The position numbers and the translations under genes were made by a program. The notes below the pieces were generated by a model that was not told the DNA's origin, ran no database searches, and saw only the letters and a list, made by a program, of their open reading frames with translations. A stretch of DNA of 31,703 nucleotides from positions 1-31,703 of IMG/VR virus record IMGVR_UViG_3300046009_003547. One strand, 5' to 3'. The stretch is from a virus. This document shows positions 288-31,703 of the stretch, piece after piece (position 1 is the first letter of the stretch; the number at the start of each line of letters is the position of its first letter).

Positions 288-447
288 GTACAATAGACAA
301 ATAGCAGAGTGTTTTACAGAGGAATGTAAGGAGACTTTCCTTAAGACCGGCCCTCGACATGTATATTGTACACATTGTCAGAAAGACCGGCAAAAGGAAA
401 GAAGTAGGAAGTGGAATAAGGAGAAGAGTAAGAGTGTTGCTATCTAG
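277..447 (+). CDS. Small four-cysteine (zinc-finger-like) protein, 56 aa
   Basis: A 56-residue open frame with a good AAGGAG at 264-269 and start ATG at 277, overlapping the end of the previous gene by 11 bases. It has a CX4C pair (C12, C17) and a CX2C pair (C31, C34) separated by 13 residues, followed by a very basic C-terminus (KDRQKERSRKW). Cysteine pairs of this kind next to a basic tail are typical of small zinc-binding nucleic-acid-binding proteins; the role here is inference. The stop TAG (445-447) overlaps the stop of the convergent fibre gene through a shared CTAG tetranucleotide, leaving no space for a terminator between the two operons. Confidence 0.65.
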   Translation: MDFRYNRQIAECFTEECKETFLKTGPRHVYCTHCQKDRQKERSRKWNKEKSKSVAI

Positions 448-2753
448 TATGTCTGTGTAGAGGAGAGTAATACAGCAGGTGTACCTATACTAACCCAATT
501 AGCACTATCAGTAGCAAAGGCTGCACTTGCTTGGTGTTCAACAATACATCTATAATTAGTGCCTGCATTTTGTACTAAAGAACCTATTACATACAATGTA
601 CCTGTTACCCAAGCATTCGCCAAAACACCCTCTGTCTTTACATACCAACCAACTGGTTGCCCAGTTGTAGTATTAAGATTTTGTATATATTCCCCTGCAC
701 TTTCAAAAAATCCAACTATAGGAGTACCATATGAATATCTTTTATGTGGGTCAAGGTTCTTCCTATTACAAATTTCTACTAGTTCATCGCTTAAACAGGA
801 AGCACTCTGTTGAATAACTGAATTTATAGGGCATATTGATATAGCCGATATAATAGTTTTAGCTAATCTTGTTGTAACATTCCATAGACTAATATCAGTA
901 GCAAATGAGGCACTTGAAGTGTGTGTGGTATTACATGAGTAATATACACCATTTACATATACTCTATTGGTTGCCACATAAGATGTACTCGGTTGCCATA
1001 ATTTTTCTGTGACTTCCCCTTGAAAGAATACTTTTGTATACTTAGTATCTTCATGTAAAGCAAAGTATCTCTTTTGTGTATTTGGCCCTGGTAATGTTAT
1101 TTCATTTGCTGTAGCAGATGCCCCACTCATCCAAGCTCTTGCAACAGAGGCAGTATTTAAATCAGCAAAGAAATTCTTATCTATATCTAAGCAACGTAAT
1201 CTTATCCTTCCATTATTGCTATCTCTAACAGTATTATATGATATAGCGAACCTTTTAGTAGCTTGTGAATTTAATAATAATGAAATACTATCTGTATTTA
1301 ACTTTAACTGTAGTCCGTCTGCTAGTATATCTATGCCTGTAGAATAGTTTGCTACTGTATTTCCTGTATTAGTAGTATGTTCAAACCCAGGTACTGTTGT
1401 ACCGCTAGAAGAAGTAATAGCCTTTTTATGTAAATTATCAAAAGTAATAAAACTTTTACTATTCTTATTAAAAGTCATTAATTCATTTTCAGCACTAGCA
1501 GCTACACTATTATCCCAGCATGCTTCATCTAGTTCAGATAGCTGCCACCTAGTTCCTGCTTCTCTTTGAGTTACTTCAATTAAATTTCCGGTTGTTCTAG
1601 CTCCTGTACCATTAGACGTAACTATATCTCTACCTATTAAGAATGGGCCAAACCCACCCTCGTACCTAGCTGCAATAACTCTGTTTCTACCACCAGCACC
1701 ATCATAGAACATTGCCGCCGATCTGCATGGCCCAACATATTCCCAGTTTATACCATTATTATCAACTGCTTGCCCTGTTGTATGCGTAGGAAAAGTTGAT
1801 CCAGCAGTCATGTTAGCTACATTAGATATTACTTTATATTCTAATCTTGTCGTAGGATTATAATATCTCTCTAAATATTGTATAGATAAGCCAGAACTTA
1901 TTGCAGTAGGCAAACTTTGTTGAAAGCATGGTTTAAAAAAGACATTTTGATTATGCCCAGTGTATCCACCTACTTTACTGGTGAATCTAATCCCATAAGT
2001 ACTTCCGAATTTAGCTAAGTTAGAGGTTGTTTGGAAATTTACACTATGGAACTCGTTTTCATTTACCCAACCACTCCCTCCCCCAATCAACCCTGGGCCA
2101 TCAGAGTGTATTTGAATACCAACCTTAAACCCAACCAGCGAACTAATATGGAATCTATTGTATGCAGTGAAGTTTCTTGCTGTAATTTTTAAAGCTGTTG
2201 TAAAATCTTGTATTCTACCTATTTCAATGTGGGAATCTATAACATCTATAAATTCTATTCCAATATGGTTATAATCATTATACTTATGTCCAGAAGCACC
2301 GTAAAACAAAGCAGATGATATTAGGTTAATACCTACATAATTTCCTTGATATGCTACAGTTCCGGCTGTACCGATTGTTAATAAAGAGCCTGAAACAAAT
2401 TGTGTAAATATCAGTTTTGCACCAGTCATATCAAGATCAATAAATGGCCCTAGGTCAAGTTGACCACTTACAGCGTAGCTACCTGGAGTTACTTTAAGTA
2501 AAACCCTATTTGTAGCAGATGCTACTGCTTTAGCTTGTGTAATTAGTGCCCGTAGTGCTGGGCCTGCATCTGTTACACCGTCTGCAACAATACTAGCTGT
2601 ACTAAAAGTATTATCATTAGTCCAAGATATACCATCGCTAGTACGTAGTAGTTTTGTATCCTTAACCAGTGCAAGTCCTTCAAAATCCGTTGCACTAGGT
2701 AGTTCACTTGCTGTATCAACTATAGTTAAGCCAGGTAAATAATGTTTACTCAT
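444..2753 (-). CDS. Tail fibre or tailspike: beta-helix plus two carbohydrate-binding-like repeats
   Basis: A 769-residue virion surface protein, probably a receptor-binding fibre or spike. Residues 1-45 look like a short capping segment. Residues about 55-110 (VADGVTDAGPAL onward, then GSYAVSG) match the entry of pectate-lyase-like right-handed beta-helices, and the region to about 450 is rich in short beta-strands with Asn and Gly turns. Residues 585-628 and 714-757 are two copies of one module with pattern W-Y-G-V-Y.C-H-F..D...W, resembling carbohydrate-binding family 5/12 or ChiC-type folds. The ATG has an AGGA eight bases upstream, and the gene lies seven bases after the previous beta-helix gene. 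It is last in the leftward operon. No depolymerase active site can be assigned by eye. Confidence 0.8.
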   Translation of the reverse strand: MSKHYLPGLTIVDTASELPSATDFEGLALVKDTKLLRTSDGISWTNDNTFSTASIVADGVTDAGPALRALITQAKAVASATNRVLLKVTPGSYAVSGQLDLGPFIDLDMTGAKLIFTQFVSGSLLTIGTAGTVAYQGNYVGINLISSALFYGASGHKYNDYNHIGIEFIDVIDSHIEIGRIQDFTTALKITARNFTAYNRFHISSLVGFKVGIQIHSDGPGLIGGGSGWVNENEFHSVNFQTTSNLAKFGSTYGIRFTSKVGGYTGHNQNVFFKPCFQQSLPTAISSGLSIQYLERYYNPTTRLEYKVISNVANMTAGSTFPTHTTGQAVDNNGINWEYVGPCRSAAMFYDGAGGRNRVIAARYEGGFGPFLIGRDIVTSNGTGARTTGNLIEVTQREAGTRWQLSELDEACWDNSVAASAENELMTFNKNSKSFITFDNLHKKAITSSSGTTVPGFEHTTNTGNTVANYSTGIDILADGLQLKLNTDSISLLLNSQATKRFAISYNTVRDSNNGRIRLRCLDIDKNFFADLNTASVARAWMSGASATANEITLPGPNTQKRYFALHEDTKYTKVFFQGEVTEKLWQPSTSYVATNRVYVNGVYYSCNTTHTSSASFATDISLWNVTTRLAKTIISAISICPINSVIQQSASCLSDELVEICNRKNLDPHKRYSYGTPIVGFFESAGEYIQNLNTTTGQPVGWYVKTEGVLANAWVTGTLYVIGSLVQNAGTNYRCIVEHQASAAFATDSANWVSIGTPAVLLSSTQTY

Positions 2754-2757
2754 CTTC

Positions 2758-4143
2758 TTATCCTATATTAGCTGGATGAATTGGGTTAAAAGTACTTTGT
2801 ACCGCGCCGATGTCTATAAAGTAGTCTGGTACTGGTTTACCATTTAGGTCAGATGGTCTTGGGCCAGTAGACCAGTACTTAGTACCAGCAGCGATTGCGG
2901 GACTTGTACTTGTAGGATAGTATCCAGAATCTAACAAAGGATTAGTATTTAATGAGTCCCCTGGAACTGTTACCTGTGCTCCTAATTGGGCATTAAATAT
3001 AGGATACGTTGTTTGGTTATAAAATAAGTTATAACTATGAGTATCCAAAGAGCGTATCTCTAATCCATAGTTTGAACCAACAAGGATGTTATTAGTAAAT
3101 GATATTTCGTTTGAGTTATAATTATTACGTATATTAGATAATGTAGTTAGGCTTCTAATAAAGGTATTATTATATACTTTAACACCTGTCAACGCTGAAG
3201 TAACGCCATAACAGTCTAAGTTATAACTTACTTGGTTTAAGAACATATTACCATATACCTTAGTACCATTTGAATTGTCTGTACCTTCGCCGGAAATAGT
3301 ATTATTAAAACCGTCTTTAAAAATATTTGACCTAACGATAAGGTTTTTTGACCCAATAAAGATAGGTTTATTTACAGTGGCTCCAACATAAGCTAAACAA
3401 GTATTATACTCTATTACTCCACCAGTGTAACCAGCGGTCATCGTAGAGACAATTAAACAGTGTTTACTGTCTTTATTACGGTGGTCTAACGTATTATGAT
3501 GTACGTATATATTTCCTGACGTACCTGAAAACTGTAGACAATCTCCATTATTATCATTTACAGAGGGATTACTTATAGTACAGTACCCAACTTCAGCGTT
3601 ATTACAATCTAACCATACTCCATCACTACCTATGTTATCTATTATACAGTTTAGTACTTTACAGTTTTGCCCACGTAGGTCTAGGCCATTAAATGCCCCG
3701 CTGTTATCATGTAGGTAGCAGTTCTGCACTATAATAGATATATCATTTGTATTAGTGCTACCACCATTTTGAATTAACTTACCAGCATGTCCTGTTATCT
3801 CTAAACCATCTATAGTTACATGGTGTGTATTAGTTGAAAATACTATTCCAGCAGTAACACCTGGGCCTGGTATTATTTTAGGCATAGCTAAGCTACTATC
3901 TCCGTAATAACTAAGTACTACCCTATTAGCACTATCCCCAGATACACTCCAAGCAATACTTCTATCAGGCTGTGCATCACTACCATGTAAGGCCCAAGTA
4001 GTGCCTCGTTTTTGTAAGTATCTATTCCCTACAGCAGCAGTATGCCCAGTCCATAATGTAGTTTTCCATGTGTTAAAGGGAGTAGCTTCACTTAGCCCAT
4101 TACCATTTGTAGGTGCGCTGGGGTCAATATAGTATGTTGCCAT
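2758..4143 (-). CDS. Right-handed beta-helix tail protein with DIGA-type C-terminal anchor
   Basis: A 461-residue predicted parallel beta-helix virion protein. The N-terminus (MATYYIDPSAPTNGNG, then ATPFNTW) is the usual entry of secreted and phage beta-helix proteins. The middle is a ladder of short strands with Asn-rich turns (HHVTIDGLEI, VLNCIIDNI, NIYVHHNTL, LIVRSNIF). The last ~45 residues (KYW, RPSDLNGKPVPD, DIGAVQST) are the terminal motif known from choice-of-anchor-Q-type proteins, and the same motif recurs in the upstream neighbour. The role is probably host polysaccharide binding or cleavage at the tail tip. The junction with the upstream gene (TAAGAAGATG) is identical to that with the downstream gene. 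Confidence 0.8.
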   Translation of the reverse strand: MATYYIDPSAPTNGNGLSEATPFNTWKTTLWTGHTAAVGNRYLQKRGTTWALHGSDAQPDRSIAWSVSGDSANRVVLSYYGDSSLAMPKIIPGPGVTAGIVFSTNTHHVTIDGLEITGHAGKLIQNGGSTNTNDISIIVQNCYLHDNSGAFNGLDLRGQNCKVLNCIIDNIGSDGVWLDCNNAEVGYCTISNPSVNDNNGDCLQFSGTSGNIYVHHNTLDHRNKDSKHCLIVSTMTAGYTGGVIEYNTCLAYVGATVNKPIFIGSKNLIVRSNIFKDGFNNTISGEGTDNSNGTKVYGNMFLNQVSYNLDCYGVTSALTGVKVYNNTFIRSLTTLSNIRNNYNSNEISFTNNILVGSNYGLEIRSLDTHSYNLFYNQTTYPIFNAQLGAQVTVPGDSLNTNPLLDSGYYPTSTSPAIAAGTKYWSTGPRPSDLNGKPVPDYFIDIGAVQSTFNPIHPANIG

Positions 4144-4147
4144 CTTC

Positions 4148-6439
4148 TTACCTACATTGTGTTATATTTAAAATAGCTGTACCGGAGGTAGTTTTCCAGG
4201 AGTAGGCTGTGTTGGTTCCCATGTATATTGTAGCAGGTGTGTTAGGAGGTATGTAGAACCTATTTACCCACATTGTGCCACTGGAAGCGTTGCTTTCAGA
4301 AAGTGTTTGTCCAATACCAATACCTACATACGCACCTACTGTTAAAGACACATTCCTTATCTCTAACTTAAGTAAGTTATCAGCCATAAATTCACTAGCT
4401 ACGACAGTAGTTGCTTCTTTGTCGCCGGAGAAGATAGAGGGGATGGAACTTTTAGCTAGGGTAAGTTCTGTAACAGTGCTTGTAGTAGTACTTTCAAGTA
4501 CGTCCGTCCTACTATCTAATTCCGTTACCTTATCAAGTTGTACCTCTACCTCCGCAGGAGTATAACTAAGTAACTCTGACAACGTAGCCGAAGGATTAGC
4601 ACTATTAATTAAGTTCTTAGGATGTCCCGCGTTAGCTGTACTTTGTACTGCTCCTATGTCAATAAATGTATCAGGTAAAGGTTCTCCATTTACATCGCTT
4701 GGCCTAGCTTGTGTCCAGTACTTTAGCCCTAACCCTATTGGATTTGCTGTACCTGCGGTAGCACTCCCATCATCTGCAATAGTAACTGTACCACTAGCTC
4801 CATTTAAATCATACCCCAACACTCTCCAAGCGGTTAAGTCTGCCGCATTAGCTGCTACTTTCCTTCCATAAACACTACCTTTCCGGTCAAAGATATTATT
4901 ATCTATATTAAAAGTAGGGGAGCCATTTAAGGTCTCTATCCATATATTCCCATAGTCAGTAAATCCACTCTGCACCGCGCAATTACTTGTAATGTTATTA
5001 TATATATTATAAGTATGCCCTGTGACAGAGGTATGTGGTGTAAGGCGCATAGCTGATCTAGCATATACACCACCATCTATTGTATTATTAGCAATAGTAG
5101 TAGTTCCATTTACACCACTCGTTGAACGCATTAGTATTTGGAACAGATCGCTACTTGATACCGACACAGCATAGGGCTGTATACGCATATTCTTAGCGAA
5201 ATTACCTACTATAGTTGCATTGGTATAGTTACAGTCGAAGGCTATAAACCTCTTATTAACACTATTACCTCTGTTGCGTAAAATCTGTATATTCGGATAG
5301 TTATGCGCTAAGGTTGTACCTATAAATACCGCACTACCTCTTGATCCTGATACAGTTGTTCCAGTAGGAACTACATCATATTGCGGCCCACCGTAGTTAC
5401 ATACTCCATCGCGTATAATGATCTTTGCTATATCCCCGCCTTCCCAACCTACTGCAACTCCCCCATCGAAGTCTCCTACAAAAGTAGGTTTACCAGTAGC
5501 AATATCGGTTTCAGGTATAGTGCCACAATAGTTAGTAATCCAGTTGTATACTTCCAACTCCCCCGTACCGGTATACATACCACCAACTTTTCCAGGTCTA
5601 GGATGGGAACCTGCAATCTTGAATCCGCCGCCTGATATACAATGATTAACTGTACCATTAAGTCTTACCCTATCTCCACCTGTAATCCAGATACCATCTT
5701 TGGTATTATCACAGATAAATGTACCATTTTTATTACTAACATCTGTACATTGGTCTATCCAAACAGGGGCCGATTGATAATAGATAGCTCCTGTGTTGTT
5801 AATCGTAAACTGCCCTTCAAAAGTTATCCCAGTTTTACCAGTAGCAAAGATCATACCCCCGTTCCAACTTTCTGCATTACTTATAAACCAATAAGAGGCT
5901 CTTATATCTACATTACTAGGTGTTTGTCCAGAAGGTAATCTAACATATAAGGCTCTGGTTATTGTATCTAAGGTCTCTGTTATAATAGTCCATTCATTCT
6001 CTTGTATAGCTCCTAATACAGTAGCAGAGGAATTAGCATACAAGGATGAAGACATTCTAGGAAGAGCTATTCCATTTATAAGTAGATGACAGGTTTCATA
6101 TACACCTTTCTTCCATACATTAAGTCCTGCATCAGCTAGATACCATGGGGCATTTGATACCTTTTGATAACTATAACTACCTTGTAATTTAATACCATTT
6201 GAACCATTTAAATCAGTTGATCCGTCGAAGATAGCATCTTCAGATACGATAGTTAGCCCACTAGCAGCGATAGTTAATGGTTCGTAGTAAGGGGAAGGAT
6301 TTAATAGTATTAGCCTATCACCGGAAGTTGCTCCTATAGCATTACTATTAATAGTACTTAGCCCCACGATAGGGTTTGCCCTAGTACCTGTACCACTTGT
6401 ACCACTACCAGCAGGTGCAATATAAAAGTCTCTAGCCAT
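4148..6439 (-). CDS. Beta-helix tail protein with duplicated C-terminal module
   Basis: A 763-residue virion surface protein. Residues 1-40 (MARDFYIAPAGSGTSGTGT) again mark a beta-helix entry, and a strand-rich helix region continues to about 560. Residues 569-610 carry the same KYW, RPSD.NG.P.PD, FIDIGAVQST anchor as the 461-aa neighbour. A third segment, 625-763, starts with YTPAEVEVQLDKV, passes through a Thr/Ser-rich linker and ends in a beta-sandwich-like block (YVGIGIGQ, NRFYIPP, AYSW). This segment is homologous by eye to the whole 131-aa protein encoded just upstream. The start ATG lies one base after the preceding stop, implying translational coupling. Receptor binding is likely; an enzymatic role cannot be judged. 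Confidence 0.8.
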   Translation of the reverse strand: MARDFYIAPAGSGTSGTGTRANPIVGLSTINSNAIGATSGDRLILLNPSPYYEPLTIAASGLTIVSEDAIFDGSTDLNGSNGIKLQGSYSYQKVSNAPWYLADAGLNVWKKGVYETCHLLINGIALPRMSSSLYANSSATVLGAIQENEWTIITETLDTITRALYVRLPSGQTPSNVDIRASYWFISNAESWNGGMIFATGKTGITFEGQFTINNTGAIYYQSAPVWIDQCTDVSNKNGTFICDNTKDGIWITGGDRVRLNGTVNHCISGGGFKIAGSHPRPGKVGGMYTGTGELEVYNWITNYCGTIPETDIATGKPTFVGDFDGGVAVGWEGGDIAKIIIRDGVCNYGGPQYDVVPTGTTVSGSRGSAVFIGTTLAHNYPNIQILRNRGNSVNKRFIAFDCNYTNATIVGNFAKNMRIQPYAVSVSSSDLFQILMRSTSGVNGTTTIANNTIDGGVYARSAMRLTPHTSVTGHTYNIYNNITSNCAVQSGFTDYGNIWIETLNGSPTFNIDNNIFDRKGSVYGRKVAANAADLTAWRVLGYDLNGASGTVTIADDGSATAGTANPIGLGLKYWTQARPSDVNGEPLPDTFIDIGAVQSTANAGHPKNLINSANPSATLSELLSYTPAEVEVQLDKVTELDSRTDVLESTTTSTVTELTLAKSSIPSIFSGDKEATTVVASEFMADNLLKLEIRNVSLTVGAYVGIGIGQTLSESNASSGTMWVNRFYIPPNTPATIYMGTNTAYSWKTTSGTAILNITQCR

Positions 6440-11445: not shown

Positions 11446-11578
11446 ATAAGACTGGTCTGTAGATGAAGTTAAAGTAGTTGTACAACATACTACTAACAAG
11501 AATAAGTATAAATACGTTACGTATAACTACTAACGTGTTACATGTTTCTTGAAACTTATCACCTTTATACTTTTTCAT
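11441..11578 (-). CDS. Small membrane protein next to the endolysin, 45 aa
   Basis: A 45-residue frame whose ATG overlaps the endolysin stop as ATGA. It has a charged N-terminus (MKKYKGDKFQE), then one hydrophobic segment at about residues 16-36 (LVVI, R20, NVFILILVSSMLYNYF), and a short tail (YRPVLF). Single-pass proteins coupled to endolysin genes usually belong to lysis (holin, antiholin or spanin). The length is short for an Rz-type spanin and there is no lipobox, so a holin or antiholin role is more likely. SD is weak (AAGG about ten bases upstream), consistent with coupling to endolysin translation. Confidence 0.5.
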   Translation of the reverse strand: MKKYKGDKFQETCNTLVVIRNVFILILVSSMLYNYFNFIYRPVLF

Positions 11579-12132
11579 TTAAGTACCTTAAGATTCTTTC
11601 TATAAAGGCGTAGTCTTTCTTCCCTACCGTTGTATCCGCCGTTTATTACTTTAGTTATTGCAGAGAACCTATCTACGTCTGCTAGTGCGTTGCAGTTATG
11701 TGTGTTCCAGAACCATCCGGCACTAAGTGCCGCATAAGGCATTTCACATAATATTTCAGGGTTATTTACAAAGTCTACTTCTAATGCCTTACTAAGTTCC
11801 TTGTAGTTATAGTAACCTGTAATCTGTATCCAGCCACGTCCTTTATAGAACCTACCTGTAGTAGTGTCTTTAGAATGCGCCGCAGTAAGTGCCGCAGGAG
11901 TTAAGTTCCCAAGGTCTTTACGATACTCATAGGCTTCACCTGAGGCTATTTCTTCTACATAGCGAAAGCTACCACTCTCATGTGTTATCTGTGCTAAGAA
12001 CGCCGCAATGCGTTCCCTTGTATTTATCTTATATCTTTCAAGTGTTATATTTAATGGCTCTAACGCCTCTATACGAAGTCTATCCGTAGCCTGCGGTACA
12101 CACTTTTCTAACTTATCCAATGTAATTAGCAT
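11575..12132 (-). CDS. Endolysin, glycoside hydrolase family 19
   Basis: A 185-residue peptidoglycan hydrolase of the GH19 (chitinase-like) fold, which cleaves glycan strands to release progeny. Diagnostic features are the catalytic HESG at residues 51-54 (E52), a second acidic cluster YVEEIASGEAYEYR at 58-71, and GRFYKGRGWIQITG at 93-106 followed by YYNY. Its length fits single-domain phage GH19 endolysins and it has no separate cell-wall-binding domain. There is no signal peptide or signal-anchor, so release needs a holin, consistent with the two membrane proteins encoded upstream. It starts just after the 54-aa protein and overlaps the 45-aa protein by four bases. Confidence 0.93.
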   Translation of the reverse strand: MLITLDKLEKCVPQATDRLRIEALEPLNITLERYKINTRERIAAFLAQITHESGSFRYVEEIASGEAYEYRKDLGNLTPAALTAAHSKDTTTGRFYKGRGWIQITGYYNYKELSKALEVDFVNNPEILCEMPYAALSAGWFWNTHNCNALADVDRFSAITKVINGGYNGREERLRLYRKNLKVLK

Positions 12133-22197: not shown

Positions 22198-22365
22198 ATG
22201 GCAAGTGTAGTATTTGATAAAGATGGTAATGTAGTTACCATAAATACAGGTAGAGGCAATGAGCAAGTAGAACTACCATCAGAGGCAAGTGCCTGTGGTA
22301 GAGCTGCATTAGCTGCATTAGCTTCAGTTGAAACCGCAGTACAAGAAGAAGAGGAAGCTAACTAA
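22198..22365 (+). CDS. Small hypothetical protein before the tail tube gene, 55 aa
   Basis: A 55-residue frame with AAAGAGG six bases upstream of its ATG and a TAATG overlap with the tail tube gene, so it is probably translated. It has an N-terminal strand-turn (MASVVFDKDGNVVTI), a middle GRGNEQVELP and an Ala-rich acidic C-terminal helix (CGRAALAALASVETAV, then EEEE). I recognise no family. Its place between tail terminator and tube genes suggests a minor tail or assembly factor. Translational coupling may help set the rate of tube protein synthesis. Confidence 0.65.
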   Translation: MASVVFDKDGNVVTINTGRGNEQVELPSEASACGRAALAALASVETAVQEEEEAN

Positions 22366-23885
22366 TGGCTATTACCGTTAAATATCACGAAAAGAACCAG
22401 GCCGTCTTCTTTGCTCTGCAAAGCGGCTCTGGTGATACTAATAAAGTTGCAACAAGTTCATTAACCCCTACTACTGCTATTGCTGCTACAGGTGTTACTT
22501 CTGATGCTACTAGAGAAACAGGAGCGTTGACATTCTTAGGTGACTCTTTGTCACGTGATGAGTTTACATACCAAAAAGATAAGTATATCGACTTAGGTAT
22601 TGAAACGTACCAAGAGGTGCTATTTGACCTTACTTCACCTATTGCACCTGATACTTATGCTATTTGGAAAATTTTTCAAACTTGTGGTGGTAATGTTGTA
22701 GTTAATAGTGATAATACTGTCTATGCAGGTAATCACTTAGACTCTCCAGACTACGGTACTGCTGATGTAAGATATTCTACTCCAGATGATCCAGATGGTG
22801 ATAAGTTATTTAAGTTCTGGGACTTACGTGGCACTGTGGATGTAGATGCATCTATCGGTGAACCACCTAAACTTAAATTCTCTCTTAAAGGTAATGCTGA
22901 TGACCCAGTACAAGCACCTAAGCAAAGTGCTGATACAGGTTTCCAGACTACACGCGTAGCGCCTTCTATTCAGAGTTCTACAATCCGTAAAGCTCAGATT
23001 GCTCTGTTAGATGATACTTTCACTAATGCAGTTGGTACAGTATTAAGTGCTGCTAGTTTAGTAAGTACTGGTAGAGTTATTGTTACTTTTACAGCTAACC
23101 ATAACTTAAATGTTGGTGAGATTATTGCTATCAATGTAAGTGGTGCAAGTGTATCAGCTTTCAATGGTTCATACATTGCTATGGTTGAATCTAATACAAC
23201 TATTAGTTACTTTGTAAAAGGTTTAACTACCGCACATACAGGTGTTACAATTTCATCTTGTAAGAAAGGTGACACTCCTACTTATAACTTCTGTTTTAGT
23301 ACACTGTCTGCGCCAAACTTTTGGGGCTTTGATTTGACACGTTACCAAACAGGCTGTGACTTTGGTTTTACTAAAGGTGCTGTACCTACTGACGTAACTG
23401 CTGGTATGTTGGCGGCCCCTGCTGCTAAACTGGTTGTAACCTCTATTACTATCTCAGGCGCTACGTTAGCAACTGTCGTAACGGCTGTCCCACATGGTAT
23501 GAGTACAGGAAACAAAGTTACTATTGCGGGGGCAGGTGGTGTAGATGCGTTGAAGATTAACATTACTGCGACTGTTACAGTTACCAATACGACAACATTT
23601 ACATATGTAGTTGCGACATCTACAAACGGAGCAGTATCAGCTGCATCAGGTACAATTATTACTGCTATTAATAACAGTAATACATCCTTTGACCCTGACT
23701 TATTTGTAACACGTTTCTTCGGCTTGTATCTATCTTTTGGTGAGAGTAATGCCGCTGGTAAACGTGTAGGTTACTTATGGAACAAAGCACAGATGTCTAA
23801 CACTAAAGAAGGTAAAGTATCTACCTACTTTGGTCGTGAGGCAACCTTCCGTAATACTGGACAAAGTTTCATGTTGTGGAGCTAG
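22365..23885 (+). CDS. Major tail tube protein with two Ig-like insertions
   Basis: A 506-residue protein, much longer than typical tube proteins (about 200-260). Residues 1-225 and scattered later parts (FTYQKDKYIDLGIETYQEVLFDL, WDLRGTVDVDASIG) fit a tube fold. Two extra beta-domains follow: residues ~226-297 (GRVIVTFTANHNLNVGEIIA onward) and ~356-431 (ATVVTAVPHGMSTGNKVTIAG onward). Both carry the NH or HG..(t/v)G..(i/v).I motif of phage Ig-like repeats. The end (EGKVSTYFGREATFRNTGQS) closes the tube domain. It polymerises into the tail tube. Position after the terminator and before the chaperone genes supports the role. An intrinsic terminator follows directly. Confidence 0.8.
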   Translation: MAITVKYHEKNQAVFFALQSGSGDTNKVATSSLTPTTAIAATGVTSDATRETGALTFLGDSLSRDEFTYQKDKYIDLGIETYQEVLFDLTSPIAPDTYAIWKIFQTCGGNVVVNSDNTVYAGNHLDSPDYGTADVRYSTPDDPDGDKLFKFWDLRGTVDVDASIGEPPKLKFSLKGNADDPVQAPKQSADTGFQTTRVAPSIQSSTIRKAQIALLDDTFTNAVGTVLSAASLVSTGRVIVTFTANHNLNVGEIIAINVSGASVSAFNGSYIAMVESNTTISYFVKGLTTAHTGVTISSCKKGDTPTYNFCFSTLSAPNFWGFDLTRYQTGCDFGFTKGAVPTDVTAGMLAAPAAKLVVTSITISGATLATVVTAVPHGMSTGNKVTIAGAGGVDALKINITATVTVTNTTTFTYVVATSTNGAVSAASGTIITAINNSNTSFDPDLFVTRFFGLYLSFGESNAAGKRVGYLWNKAQMSNTKEGKVSTYFGREATFRNTGQSFMLWS

Positions 23886-23945: not shown

Positions 23946-24503
23946 ATGAAAATCATTGTATCAAAAACAAGTAAAGCATTTAAAGAAGTACCGGCGGATG
24001 TAAAGGGTGTAAAGAATCCTATCGTATTAGGTATTAAACTCTACGGTAAAGCAGATAAAGCTGCCTTGCAAGCTGAGTATAAAAAAGTAAGTTCTACTAA
24101 AGAACTAGATAAAGCGCAAGCTTTCCTGAAAAAGCATGATGAAGAAGGTGATAAAACTACCGATGAGTTTTATGACATACGTGATGCTATGTTAGCTGAT
24201 ATAGAGGCACTTTCAGAGTCTTATGTAGCGCAGCTAACAGAGTTCTACAAAAAACAAGTACTATTTTTGAAAAATGTAGCAATTACTATTGCAGATGACA
24301 AGGGTGTAGAAAGTGTACTAACTATTGCAGATACTCGTGTTGTCGAACCAGTTGAGTCTTTATGGGTGGATTCAAATGAATGTCTAGCCGTCCTCCTAGA
24401 TTACTACTTTGAAGAAGAAGCCTATAAAGACTCCCTACCAGGGATTATCTCTTCTACAGTGTTTAACTACACACTTAAGAAGGAAGAGAAAGCAAAAAAC
24501 TAA
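23946..24503 (+). CDS. Tail assembly chaperone, G-like
   Basis: A 185-residue protein in the position of lambda gpG (140 residues), between tube and tape measure genes. It is charged and helical, with a Lys/Glu-rich middle (KELDKAQAFLKKHDEEG) and a central LTEFYKKQVLFL segment. The C-terminus ends in a Lys/Glu stretch coded just before a slippery A AAA AAC and the TAA stop. It would bind the tape measure protein during tail assembly together with the frameshifted G-T product. TTAGAGGA precedes the ATG. The family is diverse, so identification rests on order and on the frameshift signal. Confidence 0.8.
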   Translation: MKIIVSKTSKAFKEVPADVKGVKNPIVLGIKLYGKADKAALQAEYKKVSSTKELDKAQAFLKKHDEEGDKTTDEFYDIRDAMLADIEALSESYVAQLTEFYKKQVLFLKNVAITIADDKGVESVLTIADTRVVEPVESLWVDSNECLAVLLDYYFEEEAYKDSLPGIISSTVFNYTLKKEEKAKN

Positions 24504-24544
24504 TAGAAGCTGGTGAAGTACTAGGAAAATTGTCTATACTAGCT
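24481..24544 (+). promoter_or_regulatory. -1 programmed ribosomal frameshift site of the tail chaperone pair
   Basis: The heptamer A AAA AAC occupies 24494-24500 in the correct phase (GCA AAA AAC TAA), so a -1 slip enters the T frame exactly before the G stop. An SD-like AGGAAGAG lies about 6-13 bases upstream (24481-24488). Seven bases after the heptamer, AGCTGGT (24508-24514) can pair with ACTAGCT (24538-24544; one G-U pair), a 7-bp stem around a 23-base loop. SD-like sequence, slippery site and stem at this spacing are the known components of -1 frameshift signals in bacteria (dnaX, phage G-T). Confidence 0.85.
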
Positions 24545-24898
24545 AAGATAAACCGAGCAGAGGAAGAGGGCCGGAAGAAGCTAGAACAACATAGACTAGA
24601 GTATCCAGGATTAAGATTTGCAGATGACGAAGAAGAGATAGAAGAGACGATGCCTCTTGAGGTTGAATACTTCTATCTCTTCAAGTGTAATATAAAATAC
24701 CATAAGGTATTTAAGTTACTCCGAAACTATATGTCTGAATACTATGTACTTGACACAGCGTTATTATTACGTCTTATAGACGAGTTTAAACTCCCTGTAG
24801 TGAAAGCATTAACTTATATACCCTATATCCATAGCGGATACTTATCAATAGTTTTAGAGGAAAATAAAACAGATGGCACAAAAGATAATCGGGATTAA
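24500..24898 (+). CDS. T part of the G-T tail assembly chaperone, made by frameshifting
   Basis: A reading frame in the -1 phase relative to G, open from 24479 and continuing to 24898. After the slip, translation reads on from the CTA at 24500, giving 132 extra residues and a G-T protein of about 317. The T portion is helical and charged (INRAEEEGRKKLEQHRLE, later MPLEVEYFYLFKCN), with a YIPYIHSGYL segment near the end. A TTG at 24530 could open it as a separate gene, but it lacks a ribosome site and would drop the conserved overlap. G-T recruits the tube protein to the tape measure. The last 26 bases overlap the tape measure start. Confidence 0.8.
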   Translation, partial: LIEAGEVLGKLSILAKINRAEEEGRKKLEQHRLEYPGLRFADDEEEIEETMPLEVEYFYLFKCNIKYHKVFKLLRNYMSEYYVLDTALLLRLIDEFKLPVVKALTYIPYIHSGYLSIVLEENKTDGTKDNRD

Positions 24899-27800
24899 AC
24901 TAGAGGTTGATGCAGAGCAAGGGAAGAAGATAGGTCTAGTCTTTCAGCAAGCTGAGAAGTCTGCTGATGGACTGGCAAATAGGACAAAGAATCTACAAGC
25001 TATAGAGCAAGAACGTGTAAAGATAATTACCCAACAAGGTGATGCATTTACTAAACTTTACTCTACTATATCTAAAGTTAACCAAGCTTATGAAAATAAC
25101 TCCAAAGGGGCTAACTTAGGTTATGGTAATGCCACAAGAGCACTAGAAGGTTATCAACGTACTATTGAACGTACTACTGCCGCGCTAGATGAGTTAAAAC
25201 GTAAACAAACCTCACTAGCATTGCAAAATAACTTTGGTCTAAAGGAACAAGTGCAAAGCACTCCAGCTAAAGCACCTGCTGTAAACTATAGCTATGCTAC
25301 TGGTGCATACAAGGATAAAGAGGCAGAGTACCGTAGGTATATGCTCTCTATGGAAGAAATGGCACATGCTGAGAATGAAAAGTACAAGAAAGGACTAGAG
25401 GCTAAGAAGTTTGCAGATCAAGCGTATATTAACTCTGCTAAGGTAATGTATGCACAGATGTTCGACGAGATTGCAGCTAAGGAAGCTGAGGCAGCAAGAA
25501 GAGCTAAACCTGTAGATGCTAGAACCATAAACGCTATAGGGCAGAATCCATATGCGTCATATAATACTGCTACTGGAGCTAAGAGCTTCAAGCCTGTAGA
25601 TACTTTTGACCCGCAGGCCGAGGCCGCTAAAGTACGTGCCGCAGTAGAGTATGAGAATACACTACGTGATGCAGGAAGGAATAAGCAACTTATAGCACAA
25701 GCTAAACATGCTAAAGATACTCTAGCAATAGAACAGAAACTAGCTAAAGATATAGAGTTAGTTCGTCAACGTGTGTCTGGCGGTTTTATAACTAAAGGTC
25801 AAGGGTTCGAGGAACAACGTAAGGCAGTTGAAGCCTATGGTAAAGCCCTTAAAGCACTTCCTTCACTTAATCCACACATTGCAGAACACAAGAACCTACT
25901 TGTACATATCGGTGAAATCATCGGGGCTTATAGAGTACTTAACTTTACCATAAACACTGCATTAGAAGCATTAAAAAACATCCCTCGTGCTGGTATAGCA
26001 CAGCAACAAACACAAGCTAGTGTCTTTGCTATCTTTGGTATAGAAGAGGGGCAAAAGAACCTACAGTTTTTACAAAACCTAGCTCAAAGCGCTGGACAAT
26101 ACATAGGTGACTTAGAGCAATCATATAGAACCTTCGCCCCTTCTGCTGTATTAGCAGGAGCAAAGCAAGCCGAGGTTAATAAAATCTTCAAAGACTTTAG
26201 TGAAGTATCTACAGTATTACATTTATCAACAGACCAAGTTAAGTCTCTTTACCTTGCTCTTGAACAAATGTATGCAAAAACTACTGTACAAAGCGAAGAG
26301 ATTAAGAAACAGTTAGGTAATACCCTACCTGGTGCTGTAGAGATAGGTGCTAAAGCTTGGGCTAGTTATGCTAAACAAGCTGATACATCTGTATCTGCAT
26401 TTATGGCAGCTATGAAAAAGAACCTAGTTGTTACTAAGGACTTTGCTCCTGCCTTCGCAGCCGAGTATAGGAAAATATTTGGTGGTGTAGATGATAGTGT
26501 ATTCAATGATGTAAGAACTAAGTTACAGAGTAACTTACAACGTATGCGGTCAGAGTATGAGAACTTCTCAAGAAGTATTTTCTCTGCTACTGAAGGTATA
26601 ATGAATGAGACAGTTAAACTTGCTGCCGGTGCTTTACAAACTGTAAGAGAGAATTTAGAAGGTATAGGGCAGGCTCTTAAGGTTATTGCTGTACTTGGTG
26701 TAGCTAAAGCTATACAAGGCATAGGAGCATTCGCCGCCGGTAGTTTAATTGGTACATTAAAGAAATCAACCGCAGAAGGTATTGTAGAGGTAAGTAAATT
26801 TAGCTTTGCACTTGAAACTGTTGGAGAAAAACTACGTTTACTGGGGCCAGTAGTTAGTACAGTGTTTAACCCACTAACAGCTACAATTGCTGCTATTAGT
26901 GCTGGAGCTACCCTAGTAGCTACAAGTCTCACAGATATGGAAGTTAAGTATGGTAAATTAAACCATGCTAGTGAAGAACAAGTTAAAGCGCAGATGGAGA
27001 TATATGCAGCACAACAAGAAAGTGCTGATGGTGCTGGAGCGTTGCTACAAGCAATGACACAGGTAGAAGAGAAGTCTAATAGCTTGTTTATATCTTTCAA
27101 AGGTACAAGTATAGAACTTAGTACTATTTTCAAAGTACTAGGTGATTACCTAGCACAAGCTATGGAAAAGAATTTACAATTCTTAAAAGGTATTAAGGAT
27201 AATGTTGTTACTGCGTATACAAGTATTACTACTGGAATATCTCAAATAGGTTCTAGTATAGTAAGTTATATACAGAATCTTGCTTCTAGTGCATTAGAGA
27301 AAGTATTAGAGTATATAGCTAAAGTTAAAGCTGCTTTTGTAGCTACAGCCGAGTTTATAGGTAATGGGTTTAATGTAAAAGACTTTAGTACTACGTACAA
27401 TACTACTCTTACAGAGTCACTTAGTAATAATAAGAAACTTGTACAAGATATTGGTGATAGCGTAGGAAAAGTTACTGACAGGGTTAAGGGTCTTGGTACT
27501 TCTGTAGTAGAAGGTGTGTCTAGTGGATTTGGGTTTATCTCAGATAACTTAAAAACAACTACTGAGACTATACTACGTAAGGCAGCACAAGAGCAAAACA
27601 AGATAGACGCAGCATTACAAGAACAGCAACGTAAACGTGTTGAACTTAATAAAGGTTTAGATAATAAACCTGAAAACGATATGACCGGCCTTGGTGTAAA
27701 AGGTAAGGCGTCTAGTAAAGCTGACGAAGCATTACGTAAACAAGAAGACCAAGCAGCTAAAGTATTAGAACTAGAGAAACGTCTTATTGCAGAACAAAAT

Positions 27801-30800
27801 GCAATGGAACAAGATTATTATCGTAATCATATAGATGCAATTAAGTTCATGTATGACTCAGACTATATATCTTTTAAACAATATATAGATCAGAAAGGAG
27901 CTATAGAGGAAGTAGCAAATACTAAAACATTACTTGCTATAGATGAGGAAATAGAGCGTGTTAAAAAGAAACTAGAGATATATTCCCAAGTACCTCAAAT
28001 TATTAAAGATGCCCAAGGTATGTTAGATGGCATAGCTAAAGGCAACGCTACACTTAACTTTGGCAGCGATGAGAAGAACAACCAAGCTATTGCAGAGGCA
28101 AGAGAGTTAGTTGATAATTATAATAACTCTCTTAAAGGCACTAATACTAGATTAGATGAAGTCAAGAAAACCGAGTTAGAACTAACACAACTAGGTAGAC
28201 AAAAAGCGCAGTTACAAAACCAGATCGCGTCGCAGACAGCACAGAATGCACAAGATACTAAAGTTCAAAATAAGGAAATAGAAGAATCTCTTGCAGTTAC
28301 TAAGCAAGCATACCTAGAACAATTAGGTGTTATTAATGAGATAGCTATACGTAAAGCTGTAGAAGCTAAGTATGCTGGGGAGATTGCAGACTTAGCTAAA
28401 ATAGGTATAGGCGACCCTAACTATGCGGCGGCCCAACAAAGGCTTACTCAAATAGAGCAACAAAAGGAGATAGATGTTGCAGGTAAGCTATCTGAAATGC
28501 GTAGGAAGCAAACACAAGAACTACGTGATATAAGTTCTGCGTACAAAGATGTAGCCTATAGTGCAAATGATGCCATAAATAGTCAACTTGGTGGATTTGG
28601 TGCATTGATTAATGCTATTAACAATTTTGGGGCTAAAGATAATGACTATGCCAAAGCTAGGCAAGAGAATGAAGATCGTTATACAGCAGCTGTAGAACGT
28701 AGAAAAAACATTGTTGAGTCTATACAAATACCACTAGATTACGACAAAGGACAGAAAGAAGCTTTTGAGAATGCAGATAAAGCCGCTAAAGCTTCAGCTC
28801 TTACACGTACTCAAATTGATATGGACGAGACAGCCTCTAAGATAGGTAACATGCGTCAAATCGCGGGAGTTAGTAAGGCTTTCTTTGCAGAAAATACTAA
28901 AGCTAGACGAGCTCTACACAACGCCGAAATGACTTTAGGTGCTGCTGAAATGGCTTTTAAACTAGGCTCTCTTGCTATAGAAGGAGCTAAAGCTATATTA
29001 GTACAAGGCCAAGGTGAGCCTTATAGTGCTTTTGCGCGTATCGCAGCTATGACAGCTTTAGTTGCAGGTATTATCGCAGGTGTTGGTGGAGCTATGACTA
29101 AGACAGGAACATCTAATGTATCTATGCCTGTTAGTGATTCTAAAGGCACTACTTTCGGTGCGCCAGACCAAGAAGCAACTGATTTAACTGATACATTGTC
29201 GTTTTTAGCTGATGTAAATTATAAGTCCTACAGAGAGTTAAGAAAACTTAATGAAAATTTCGCAGGTATTTCTAATGACATTTATAGATTAACACTGTTA
29301 CAAGCAAGTGGTAAAGCCTTACTTCCTGTTAGACCTACTCTTGAAGGAACCTTCCCAGGAACTAATATACTTAACACCCTTAAAAGCCCAGACCCATTCC
29401 AGAACATTATACAAAAGAATTCAGCTAATAAGATGAACAAAGACCTTATAACTGGGGTTTTAATGAGAGCTTTGATGGGTTCTACTACTATAAAAGTAAT
29501 AGACGAAGGTATTATAACAGCTAGGACTACGATTGCATCCCTACTACGTGGAGAACAAGTACTTGTACAGCAATATGCTACAATAGAAGCAACTAAAAAG
29601 TCTTTATTTGGCAAATCTACTGAAATATTTGACTCACTAAGTAGATCTAGCAACGGAGCGTCTACAATAGTTACATCCTTATATACAAACATAGCTAAGA
29701 GTGTAATTAACCTTGCTAGAAACGTATCAGAAGTAGAACTTAATAAAGCCTTTAACTATGTTATACCAGAGTTAAAAGTATCTCTACAAGGTAAAAATAC
29801 CGCCGAGATACAAAAAACCTTACAAGGTGTTATATCTAAACAGCTTAATCTTATGTCTTTGAAAGTCTTTAGTGTATTTAAAGACCTAAGGCAGCTTAAA
29901 GAAGGTATGTTTAGTACAGTATCTAGGATATTTGCTGAACGTGAGATAGTAGAGACGTCGTTTAAAGACATTGGGGTAACTTCACTACCTACTGCAAATA
30001 TAGAGGCTATTAAGTTCTCTGATGCAATGATACAACTTAGTGCTACTACTGGCACTGCTGTAGAGAAGATTAAAGCCTTCCAACAAGCTGAGAGTGATTT
30101 CTATAAGAACTTCGTTTCTAAGAACCAACAAAATTTAGATACTGTTACCAAGGTAGCAGAGGGACTATTTAGTGTATTTGAAAAAGGACTAAGTAAGACA
30201 CAACAAGCTGTAGTAGACCAAGAGGTTAAGGTAGCGCAAGCTAGAGCTAAGTTAGCACAAGTAGCTGAAACCAGTAATGCCACAAGTACAGTTTACGAGA
30301 ATGCTAGAAGAGAAGTATACAATGAAACTAATATACTAGATACCTTAAGACCACAAAGTAAGTCACTACGTGATTACTTCCAGGAGGCGTTTGCTTCCAC
30401 TGGTAACTTTGGCGATGCGCTTATATTAGTTAAACGTCAACTTGACTTAGCTACTGACTCAGGTAAAGAAACTTACAGTCTTATTAATGATCTTAACGAC
30501 ATAACATCTAAGTATAACGATCTTACAAAAGAATTATATGACTCCATAGATAAACAAGTAACAACACTACGTGATAGCATCGACCTACGTACACAAGACC
30601 AATTACTAGCAGCTCTACGAGCTTCACGTGACATAAACGAACAAAAAGAACTCTCTACTAAGATACAAAAACTAATGCTTGATAAGCATAATGCAGAAAT
30701 TAGTAGTATAAAAACCATAACCTCTGCATATAAAGCTCTTGGAGACTTAGTTAAGAACATGCTCTTAGGCGACCTATCTACTCTTGGGCCAAAAGCTAAG

Positions 30801-31703
30801 TTAGACGAGGCACGTAGTCAGTATGAACGTACTCTTGCTACTGCACAGGGGCCAGATAAAGTAGCGGCAGCAGAGGCAGCACAGAAACTAGGTAGTATCG
30901 CGCAGGCTTACTTGCAACAAGCTAAAACATACTATAGTTCCACAACTGCATATGCTAGTATCTTCGCTAGTGTAACTGCTACACTTAAAGCTCTCGCAGA
31001 TAGTGTACCTGATACTACTACGGAAACAACTGTAACACAGGCTGTTATAGATAGCACTAATGCTACAATTGCTGCATTAGATACATTACGTAAAGCTGTA
31101 ACTGAGGCACTTAGTGAAACACTTAAGGTAGAGATAACTAATGTTCAGGATAGTGTGGAGCAAGATACACCTAAAGGTGTAGGTACGCTTGAAGCACTCT
31201 TTAATAAACTAGCTACTGCCGATAAAGGCGAGAAAGCCCTACTTAATAAACAAATCGCGGCCTACAATGCAGGGTATAAGAAGTCAGGTACAACGGGTGC
31301 AGAGCTAGCACTTGCAGCAGAGCAAGAGAGACAGGCTGCGAAAGCTACACTTAAAGGTAAAGAAGGTGAATATAACTTAGCTAAAAAGAACAAAGATAAA
31401 GCACTAATGGCAACATTAGCACTTGACATTGCCGAGGCAAAAGCTATAATAGCAGCTAAGACGGCGGTGCTTCGTACTGTAGGTTTTAAAGCCTCTGGCG
31501 GCGATGCCTTTGGGCCAACTGTAGTAGGTGAAAGAGGCATAGAGTTCCTTAATCTACCACGAGGCTCTAGTGTTAGTAGTAATGCTCAGACTAACTCTAT
31601 CATTGCAATGGCTAATAAACAAGTTATTGCAGAGCTGCAAGGTATGAACAAGGAGCTGCGGTCGTTGAATGATAGAATGGGCGACATAGAACGTAAATCA
31701 TCT
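24873..31703 (+). CDS. Tape measure protein (continues past the window)
   Basis: An open frame of 2277 codons from ATG 24873 to the last base with no stop, far above lambda gpH (853 residues). It is Ala/Lys/Gln-rich and mostly helical, with long coiled-coil stretches. Hydrophobic segments occur at residues ~600-620 (IAVLGVAKAIQGIGAFAAG), ~665-685 (LTATIAAISAGATLVATSL) and ~1388-1410 (AAMTALVAGIIAGVGGA). At residues ~2208-2230, FGPTVVGERGIEFLNLP is the motif usually seen near tape-measure C-termini, so the true end should be close. It sets tail length and is ejected through the tube. The initiation region overlaps T; AGAGG lies about 15 bases upstream of the ATG. No peptidase or lysozyme motif was seen. 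Confidence 0.92.
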   Translation, partial: MAQKIIGIKLEVDAEQGKKIGLVFQQAEKSADGLANRTKNLQAIEQERVKIITQQGDAFTKLYSTISKVNQAYENNSKGANLGYGNATRALEGYQRTIERTTAALDELKRKQTSLALQNNFGLKEQVQSTPAKAPAVNYSYATGAYKDKEAEYRRYMLSMEEMAHAENEKYKKGLEAKKFADQAYINSAKVMYAQMFDEIAAKEAEAARRAKPVDARTINAIGQNPYASYNTATGAKSFKPVDTFDPQAEAAKVRAAVEYENTLRDAGRNKQLIAQAKHAKDTLAIEQKLAKDIELVRQRVSGGFITKGQGFEEQRKAVEAYGKALKALPSLNPHIAEHKNLLVHIGEIIGAYRVLNFTINTALEALKNIPRAGIAQQQTQASVFAIFGIEEGQKNLQFLQNLAQSAGQYIGDLEQSYRTFAPSAVLAGAKQAEVNKIFKDFSEVSTVLHLSTDQVKSLYLALEQMYAKTTVQSEEIKKQLGNTLPGAVEIGAKAWASYAKQADTSVSAFMAAMKKNLVVTKDFAPAFAAEYRKIFGGVDDSVFNDVRTKLQSNLQRMRSEYENFSRSIFSATEGIMNETVKLAAGALQTVRENLEGIGQALKVIAVLGVAKAIQGIGAFAAGSLIGTLKKSTAEGIVEVSKFSFALETVGEKLRLLGPVVSTVFNPLTATIAAISAGATLVATSLTDMEVKYGKLNHASEEQVKAQMEIYAAQQESADGAGALLQAMTQVEEKSNSLFISFKGTSIELSTIFKVLGDYLAQAMEKNLQFLKGIKDNVVTAYTSITTGISQIGSSIVSYIQNLASSALEKVLEYIAKVKAAFVATAEFIGNGFNVKDFSTTYNTTLTESLSNNKKLVQDIGDSVGKVTDRVKGLGTSVVEGVSSGFGFISDNLKTTTETILRKAAQEQNKIDAALQEQQRKRVELNKGLDNKPENDMTGLGVKGKASSKADEALRKQEDQAAKVLELEKRLIAEQNAMEQDYYRNHIDAIKFMYDSDYISFKQYIDQKGAIEEVANTKTLLAIDEEIERVKKKLEIYSQVPQIIKDAQGMLDGIAKGNATLNFGSDEKNNQAIAEARELVDNYNNSLKGTNTRLDEVKKTELELTQLGRQKAQLQNQIASQTAQNAQDTKVQNKEIEESLAVTKQAYLEQLGVINEIAIRKAVEAKYAGEIADLAKIGIGDPNYAAAQQRLTQIEQQKEIDVAGKLSEMRRKQTQELRDISSAYKDVAYSANDAINSQLGGFGALINAINNFGAKDNDYAKARQENEDRYTAAVERRKNIVESIQIPLDYDKGQKEAFENADKAAKASALTRTQIDMDETASKIGNMRQIAGVSKAFFAENTKARRALHNAEMTLGAAEMAFKLGSLAIEGAKAILVQGQGEPYSAFARIAAMTALVAGIIAGVGGAMTKTGTSNVSMPVSDSKGTTFGAPDQEATDLTDTLSFLADVNYKSYRELRKLNENFAGISNDIYRLTLLQASGKALLPVRPTLEGTFPGTNILNTLKSPDPFQNIIQKNSANKMNKDLITGVLMRALMGSTTIKVIDEGIITARTTIASLLRGEQVLVQQYATIEATKKSLFGKSTEIFDSLSRSSNGASTIVTSLYTNIAKSVINLARNVSEVELNKAFNYVIPELKVSLQGKNTAEIQKTLQGVISKQLNLMSLKVFSVFKDLRQLKEGMFSTVSRIFAEREIVETSFKDIGVTSLPTANIEAIKFSDAMIQLSATTGTAVEKIKAFQQAESDFYKNFVSKNQQNLDTVTKVAEGLFSVFEKGLSKTQQAVVDQEVKVAQARAKLAQVAETSNATSTVYENARREVYNETNILDTLRPQSKSLRDYFQEAFASTGNFGDALILVKRQLDLATDSGKETYSLINDLNDITSKYNDLTKELYDSIDKQVTTLRDSIDLRTQDQLLAALRASRDINEQKELSTKIQKLMLDKHNAEISSIKTITSAYKALGDLVKNMLLGDLSTLGPKAKLDEARSQYERTLATAQGPDKVAAAEAAQKLGSIAQAYLQQAKTYYSSTTAYASIFASVTATLKALADSVPDTTTETTVTQAVIDSTNATIAALDTLRKAVTEALSETLKVEITNVQDSVEQDTPKGVGTLEALFNKLATADKGEKALLNKQIAAYNAGYKKSGTTGAELALAAEQERQAAKATLKGKEGEYNLAKKNKDKALMATLALDIAEAKAIIAAKTAVLRTVGFKASGGDAFGPTVVGERGIEFLNLPRGSSVSSNAQTNSIIAMANKQVIAELQGMNKELRSLNDRMGDIERKSS

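Follow-up and report, generated by a model that had tools for sequence, protein, structure and literature searches.

The IMG/VR virus record IMGVR_UViG_3300046009_003547 (31,703 nt, analysed over its whole length and called the window below) carries a short gene whose zero frame ends, as read directly in the sequence, with GCA AAA AAC TAA, and a second frame, one base back, that remains open far beyond this stop. How is the protein encoded by this second frame produced? The first gene is a G-like tail assembly chaperone ORF on the plus strand (23946..24503, 185 aa, from ATG 23946 to TAA 24501-24503), and the slippery heptamer A AAA AAC (24494..24500, +) lies in frame directly 5' of its stop codon. 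The -1 frame stays open across 24479-24898, bounded upstream by a TAA at 24476-24478 and closed by a TAA at 24896-24898, and its T domain (24500..24898, +; 132 codons plus the stop) would be entered via frameshift. Both the heptamer before the stop and the open T frame had been pointed out in an earlier note on this DNA, and both are read directly in the sequence. The site is almost certainly a programmed -1 ribosomal frameshift of the lambda G/GT kind, and as such it is an ordinary case of a known, textbook kind of mechanism, met in a divergent phage lineage. A slip at A AAA AAC is predicted to yield a G-T fusion of 317 aa (185+132), whose junction reads EKAKN-LIEAGE, and a junction peptide would contain AKNLIEAGEVLGK (or AKKLIEAGEVLGK).

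As in lambda-type G/GT systems, the locus lies between a major tail protein gene and the tape measure gene, the upstream gene being a candidate by position only. This candidate (22365..23885, +) is the ORF directly 5' of G, is found in the same place in the relatives, and its product has no confident family match. The tape measure protein gene (24873..31703, +) is an open ORF of at least 2277 aa that leaves the window at its end, has a PHROG match (best E 8.9e-20), and overlaps the end of T by 26 bases at its start. The window also encodes a lambda-family terminase and portal, as well as a major head protein. Genes of its left part are mostly on the opposite strand, and an endolysin/chitinase-like gene (11575-12132, -) and long genes with a CBM_5_12 carbohydrate-binding module and beta helix (444-6439, -) possibly encode lysis and tail fibre or host-surface proteins. 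Searches of curated families with G and T gave no confident match; Pfam Phage_TAC_4, the family matched by most members, was recovered for 4 of the 12 genomes compared, weakly (best E 0.024). The structures of G predicted for the window and for one relative (L018) reached a pLDDT of 85 and 82, respectively; the former had no significant match in the PDB, and for the latter the comparison covered the viral library (BFVD). In this library, both had weak matches that included named tail assembly or tape measure chaperones, with no named tail chaperone at E <= 0.001. Taken together, position, gene order and frameshift make a tail chaperone pair by far the best reading of G and T.

The comparison set consists of 12 genomes, namely the window and 11 distinct IMG/VR relatives that were gathered by searching with the capsid protein. 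This bait was needed because scans of viral contigs with a single query, either G or the tail protein, returned no relatives. Searches of an annotated phage collection at the DNA or protein level found no relatives of G or T, and no prophage relatives were found in the bacterial genomes searched. In the 11 relatives, homologues of G, and likewise of T, occupy the same locus, and the pairwise DNA identity of G-T is about 45-60% for most pairs and 70-80% for the closest ones. The G proteins fall into two length classes, set apart by a helical insertion of about 30 residues halfway along the protein (window vs L007, L009, L017 and L018).

The earlier note had proposed to look for the heptamer in related phages: it is retained in 11/11 relatives, and A AAA AAC consequently stands in frame at the end of G in 12/12 genomes. 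Together with one more base, it forms the longest invariant run of G-T in the 12-genome alignment, AAAAAACT, and the longest invariant run was AAAAAACTAAT when four genomes were compared. The codon following the heptamer is TAA in nine of the twelve genomes (including the window) and TAG in L017, and in L016 (13663-13675) and L022 (14081-14093) the sequence AAAAAAC TCA TAG moves the zero-frame stop one codon downstream, so that a stop right behind the heptamer is common, not required. On its 5' side, the -1 frame is open over merely 3-24 nt in the 12 genomes, thus confining the shift to the heptamer itself. In-frame A_AAA_AAC occurs five times among the 9,695 codon steps of the genes of the window, and of these five occurrences only 24494-24500 is located at a gene end before a long open -1 frame. 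The arrangement is that of lambda-type G/GT genes, with an in-frame X XXY YYZ at the 3' end of G and an open -1 frame beyond it.

Such conservation also bears on the possibility that RNA polymerase, and not the ribosome, slips at this place, inserting an A in the A6 run and giving rise to the fusion. The run has six As in every genome, and one extra A would presumably yield the identical frame change, but six As are few next to the run lengths given for slippage of this type (n > 7; PMC3711429). Moreover, the C behind A6 is also invariant, as would suit a shift on the codon pair AAA AAC better than one on a simple stretch of As, and transcriptional slippage is highly unlikely to be the source of the fusion.

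Does T require the frameshift at all? It could be a separate gene, with its own initiation at TTG 24530 or with reinitiation at the G stop, the heptamer being incidental; AGGA is indeed found close upstream of TTG 24530, which is the only start nearby in the window, and in two relatives (L007 and L023) a T-frame ATG stands right at the G stop (TAATG). Over the first ten codons after the heptamer, however, 67% of the single-base differences between codons leave the amino acid unchanged in the T frame, compared with 14% and 10% when the same codons are read in the zero frame and the +1 frame, respectively. The variable site in these early T codons is the third T-frame position, and the first 40 T codons contain no stop in any of the 12 genomes. 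These constrained codons are located upstream of TTG 24530, and a start at the position of this TTG is confined to the window. In three of the genomes (L008, L009 and L017), the T frame is devoid of any ATG, GTG or TTG. T has thus no conserved independent start, as in lambda-type G/GT genes, and the constraint begins at the shift codon. Initiation at 24530, which the earlier note had named as the alternative that would refute it, is contradicted by the upstream T-frame constraint and by the start-less T of these relatives, and the retention of the heptamer in every genome is contrary to an incidental role, making a separately initiated T very improbable. Judging from these comparisons of sequence, T is very probably made by frameshifting, and the 317-residue G-T fusion put forward in the same note is supported by both the heptamer conservation and the T-frame constraint. 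The ATG directly at the G stop (CTAATGG; L007 14786-14800, L023 6159-6173) is absent from the other ten genomes; T alone might additionally be initiated at this non-conserved codon in L007 and L023.

In the -1 frameshift reading, the majority of ribosomes would translate G and terminate at TAA 24501, while a minority, with tRNA-Lys and tRNA-Asn on AAA AAC, would slip one base back onto AAA AAA. The slipped ribosomes would resume at CTA 24500 in the T frame and thereby produce the 317-residue G-T protein. We infer from the conservation of the site that such slippage occurs in cells. By analogy with lambda, G would coat the tape measure protein, and the T domain would recruit the tail tube protein.

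The earlier note had gone further and described a complete cassette, in which the heptamer is flanked by a Shine-Dalgarno (SD)-like element and a 7-bp stem beginning 7 nt downstream. Both flanking features are present in the window, and the heptamer part of this description stands in all genomes, whereas the relatives do not all keep the SD-like element, and the stem, likewise not conserved, is of a common type. The SD-like AGGAAGAG (24481..24488, +), a candidate upstream stimulator, has a predicted duplex of -5.7 kcal/mol, a strength that 10% of the windows inside G equal or exceed. L009 lacks the element, and nothing makes it stand out in L017, L018 and L020, so that a conserved upstream SD-like stimulator of the dnaX type was not found in the family, though one is present in the window.

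The candidate stimulatory stem pairs a 5' arm AGCTGGT (24508..24514, +) with a 3' arm ACTAGCT (24538..24544, +) through seven pairs, one of them G-U, begins exactly 7 nt past the heptamer, and has an MFE of -11.0 kcal/mol, inner pairs included. The outcome of RNA folding, another check that had been proposed, is mixed: the downstream fold of the window is stronger than expected from synonymous-codon shuffles (p = 0.02), but a comparable 7-bp stem (G-U allowed, 5-9 nt spacer, loop 3-30) is found at 11.4% of window positions. The folded region ranks in the strongest 2-3.5% of the 40-nt windows of the genome. Strong folding is also enriched across the family relative to synonymous shuffles (Fisher 6e-5 at 60 nt, an optimistic value since related genomes are not independent), being very strong in L020-L023, strong in L008, and lacking in L016, L017 and L018. 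The strong stems of the family are not one and the same: they pair different stretches, and RNAalifold returned no consensus structure on the 12-genome alignment. Rfam has no relevant match near the frameshift site. Three relatives (L008, L020 and L021) share a stem of GC(A/G)TTAGG with CCTAA(T/C)G, about 15-55 nt past the heptamer, which shows one compensatory A-U to G-C double change, synonymous in T on both sides. A pseudoknot between the loop GTCTAT (24532-24537) and ATAGAC (24593-24598), spotted by eye, was dismissed as likely due to chance. Stimulatory roles for the stem and the SD-like element are plausible.

How does this locus compare with known systems? The lambda G/GT heptamer is G GGA AAG, whereas it is A AAA AAC here, and the shift would take place at the very last codons of G, unlike in lambda. 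In both cases, a short chaperone ORF lies just 5' of the tape measure gene, with the shift near its 3' end and with T in the -1 frame. The neighbouring genes of the window, for the tape measure protein and for a lambda-type terminase and portal, also fit with lambda G/GT. The programmed -1 frameshift of lambda G/GT and of its long-tailed phage relatives is described in Xu, Hendrix and Duda 2004 and reviewed in PMC5009743; unlike these relatives, G and T of the window match known tail chaperone families at no confident score. Several other phages are credited with the same heptamer: for HCTV-2, A_AAA_AAC is named as the site of the g-t shift (PMC5009743), and AAAAAAC is given as the shift site of phiCbK (PMC3556154) and Loki (PMC5313236), and tentatively of Dragolir (PMC6003738). 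In the Acinetobacter phage Loki (gp12/gp13; PMC5313236; LN890663), AAAAAAC is located directly 5' of the G stop as in the window, the record carries the identical AAAAAACTAAT at the site, and T likewise begins with LIE. One member of the annotated Loki chaperone pair is a two-piece joined CDS (LN890663). Comparison of the G and T proteins of Loki and the window by hhalign detected no relation, and Loki has an extra gene between T and the tape measure gene, whereas the latter directly follows T in the window. The Caulobacter phage phiCbK, a large prolate-headed siphophage likened here from its published description, has its AAAAAAC slippery site in a pre-tape-measure chaperone gene (gp93/gp94), as here (PMC3556154). 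Outside phages, dnaX of E. coli similarly combines an A-rich heptamer with an SD-like element upstream and a stem downstream. Its heptamer, A AAA AAG, ends with AAG instead of AAC, its AGGGAG is 10 nt 5' of the heptamer (7 nt for AGGAAG in the window), and its frameshift product is the shorter one, in contrast to the longer fusion predicted here.

The last codon of the heptamer may matter for its efficiency. The earlier note had rated A AAA AAC below A AAA AAG as a shift site in E. coli, in agreement with the Atkins review (PMC5009743). The lineage fixes A AAA AAC, mostly with a stop directly behind it. A rather doubtful proposal built on this is that a tRNA-Asn of the hosts (with a hypomodified wobble base, for example) may turn AAC into an efficient bacterial shift codon, and that the stop next to it would act as a pausing element that replaces a conserved stem. 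No tRNA genes were found in the window nor in the four relative loci scanned.

For a divergent and database-poor phage lineage, recognizing the frameshift is a gain for annotation, as T would otherwise be missed or mis-started. It would also add 12 genomes in which A AAA AAC, and not A AAA AAG, serves as the tail chaperone shift site, and these genomes may constitute a natural test set for the effect of tRNA-Asn and of the adjacent stop codon on slippage.
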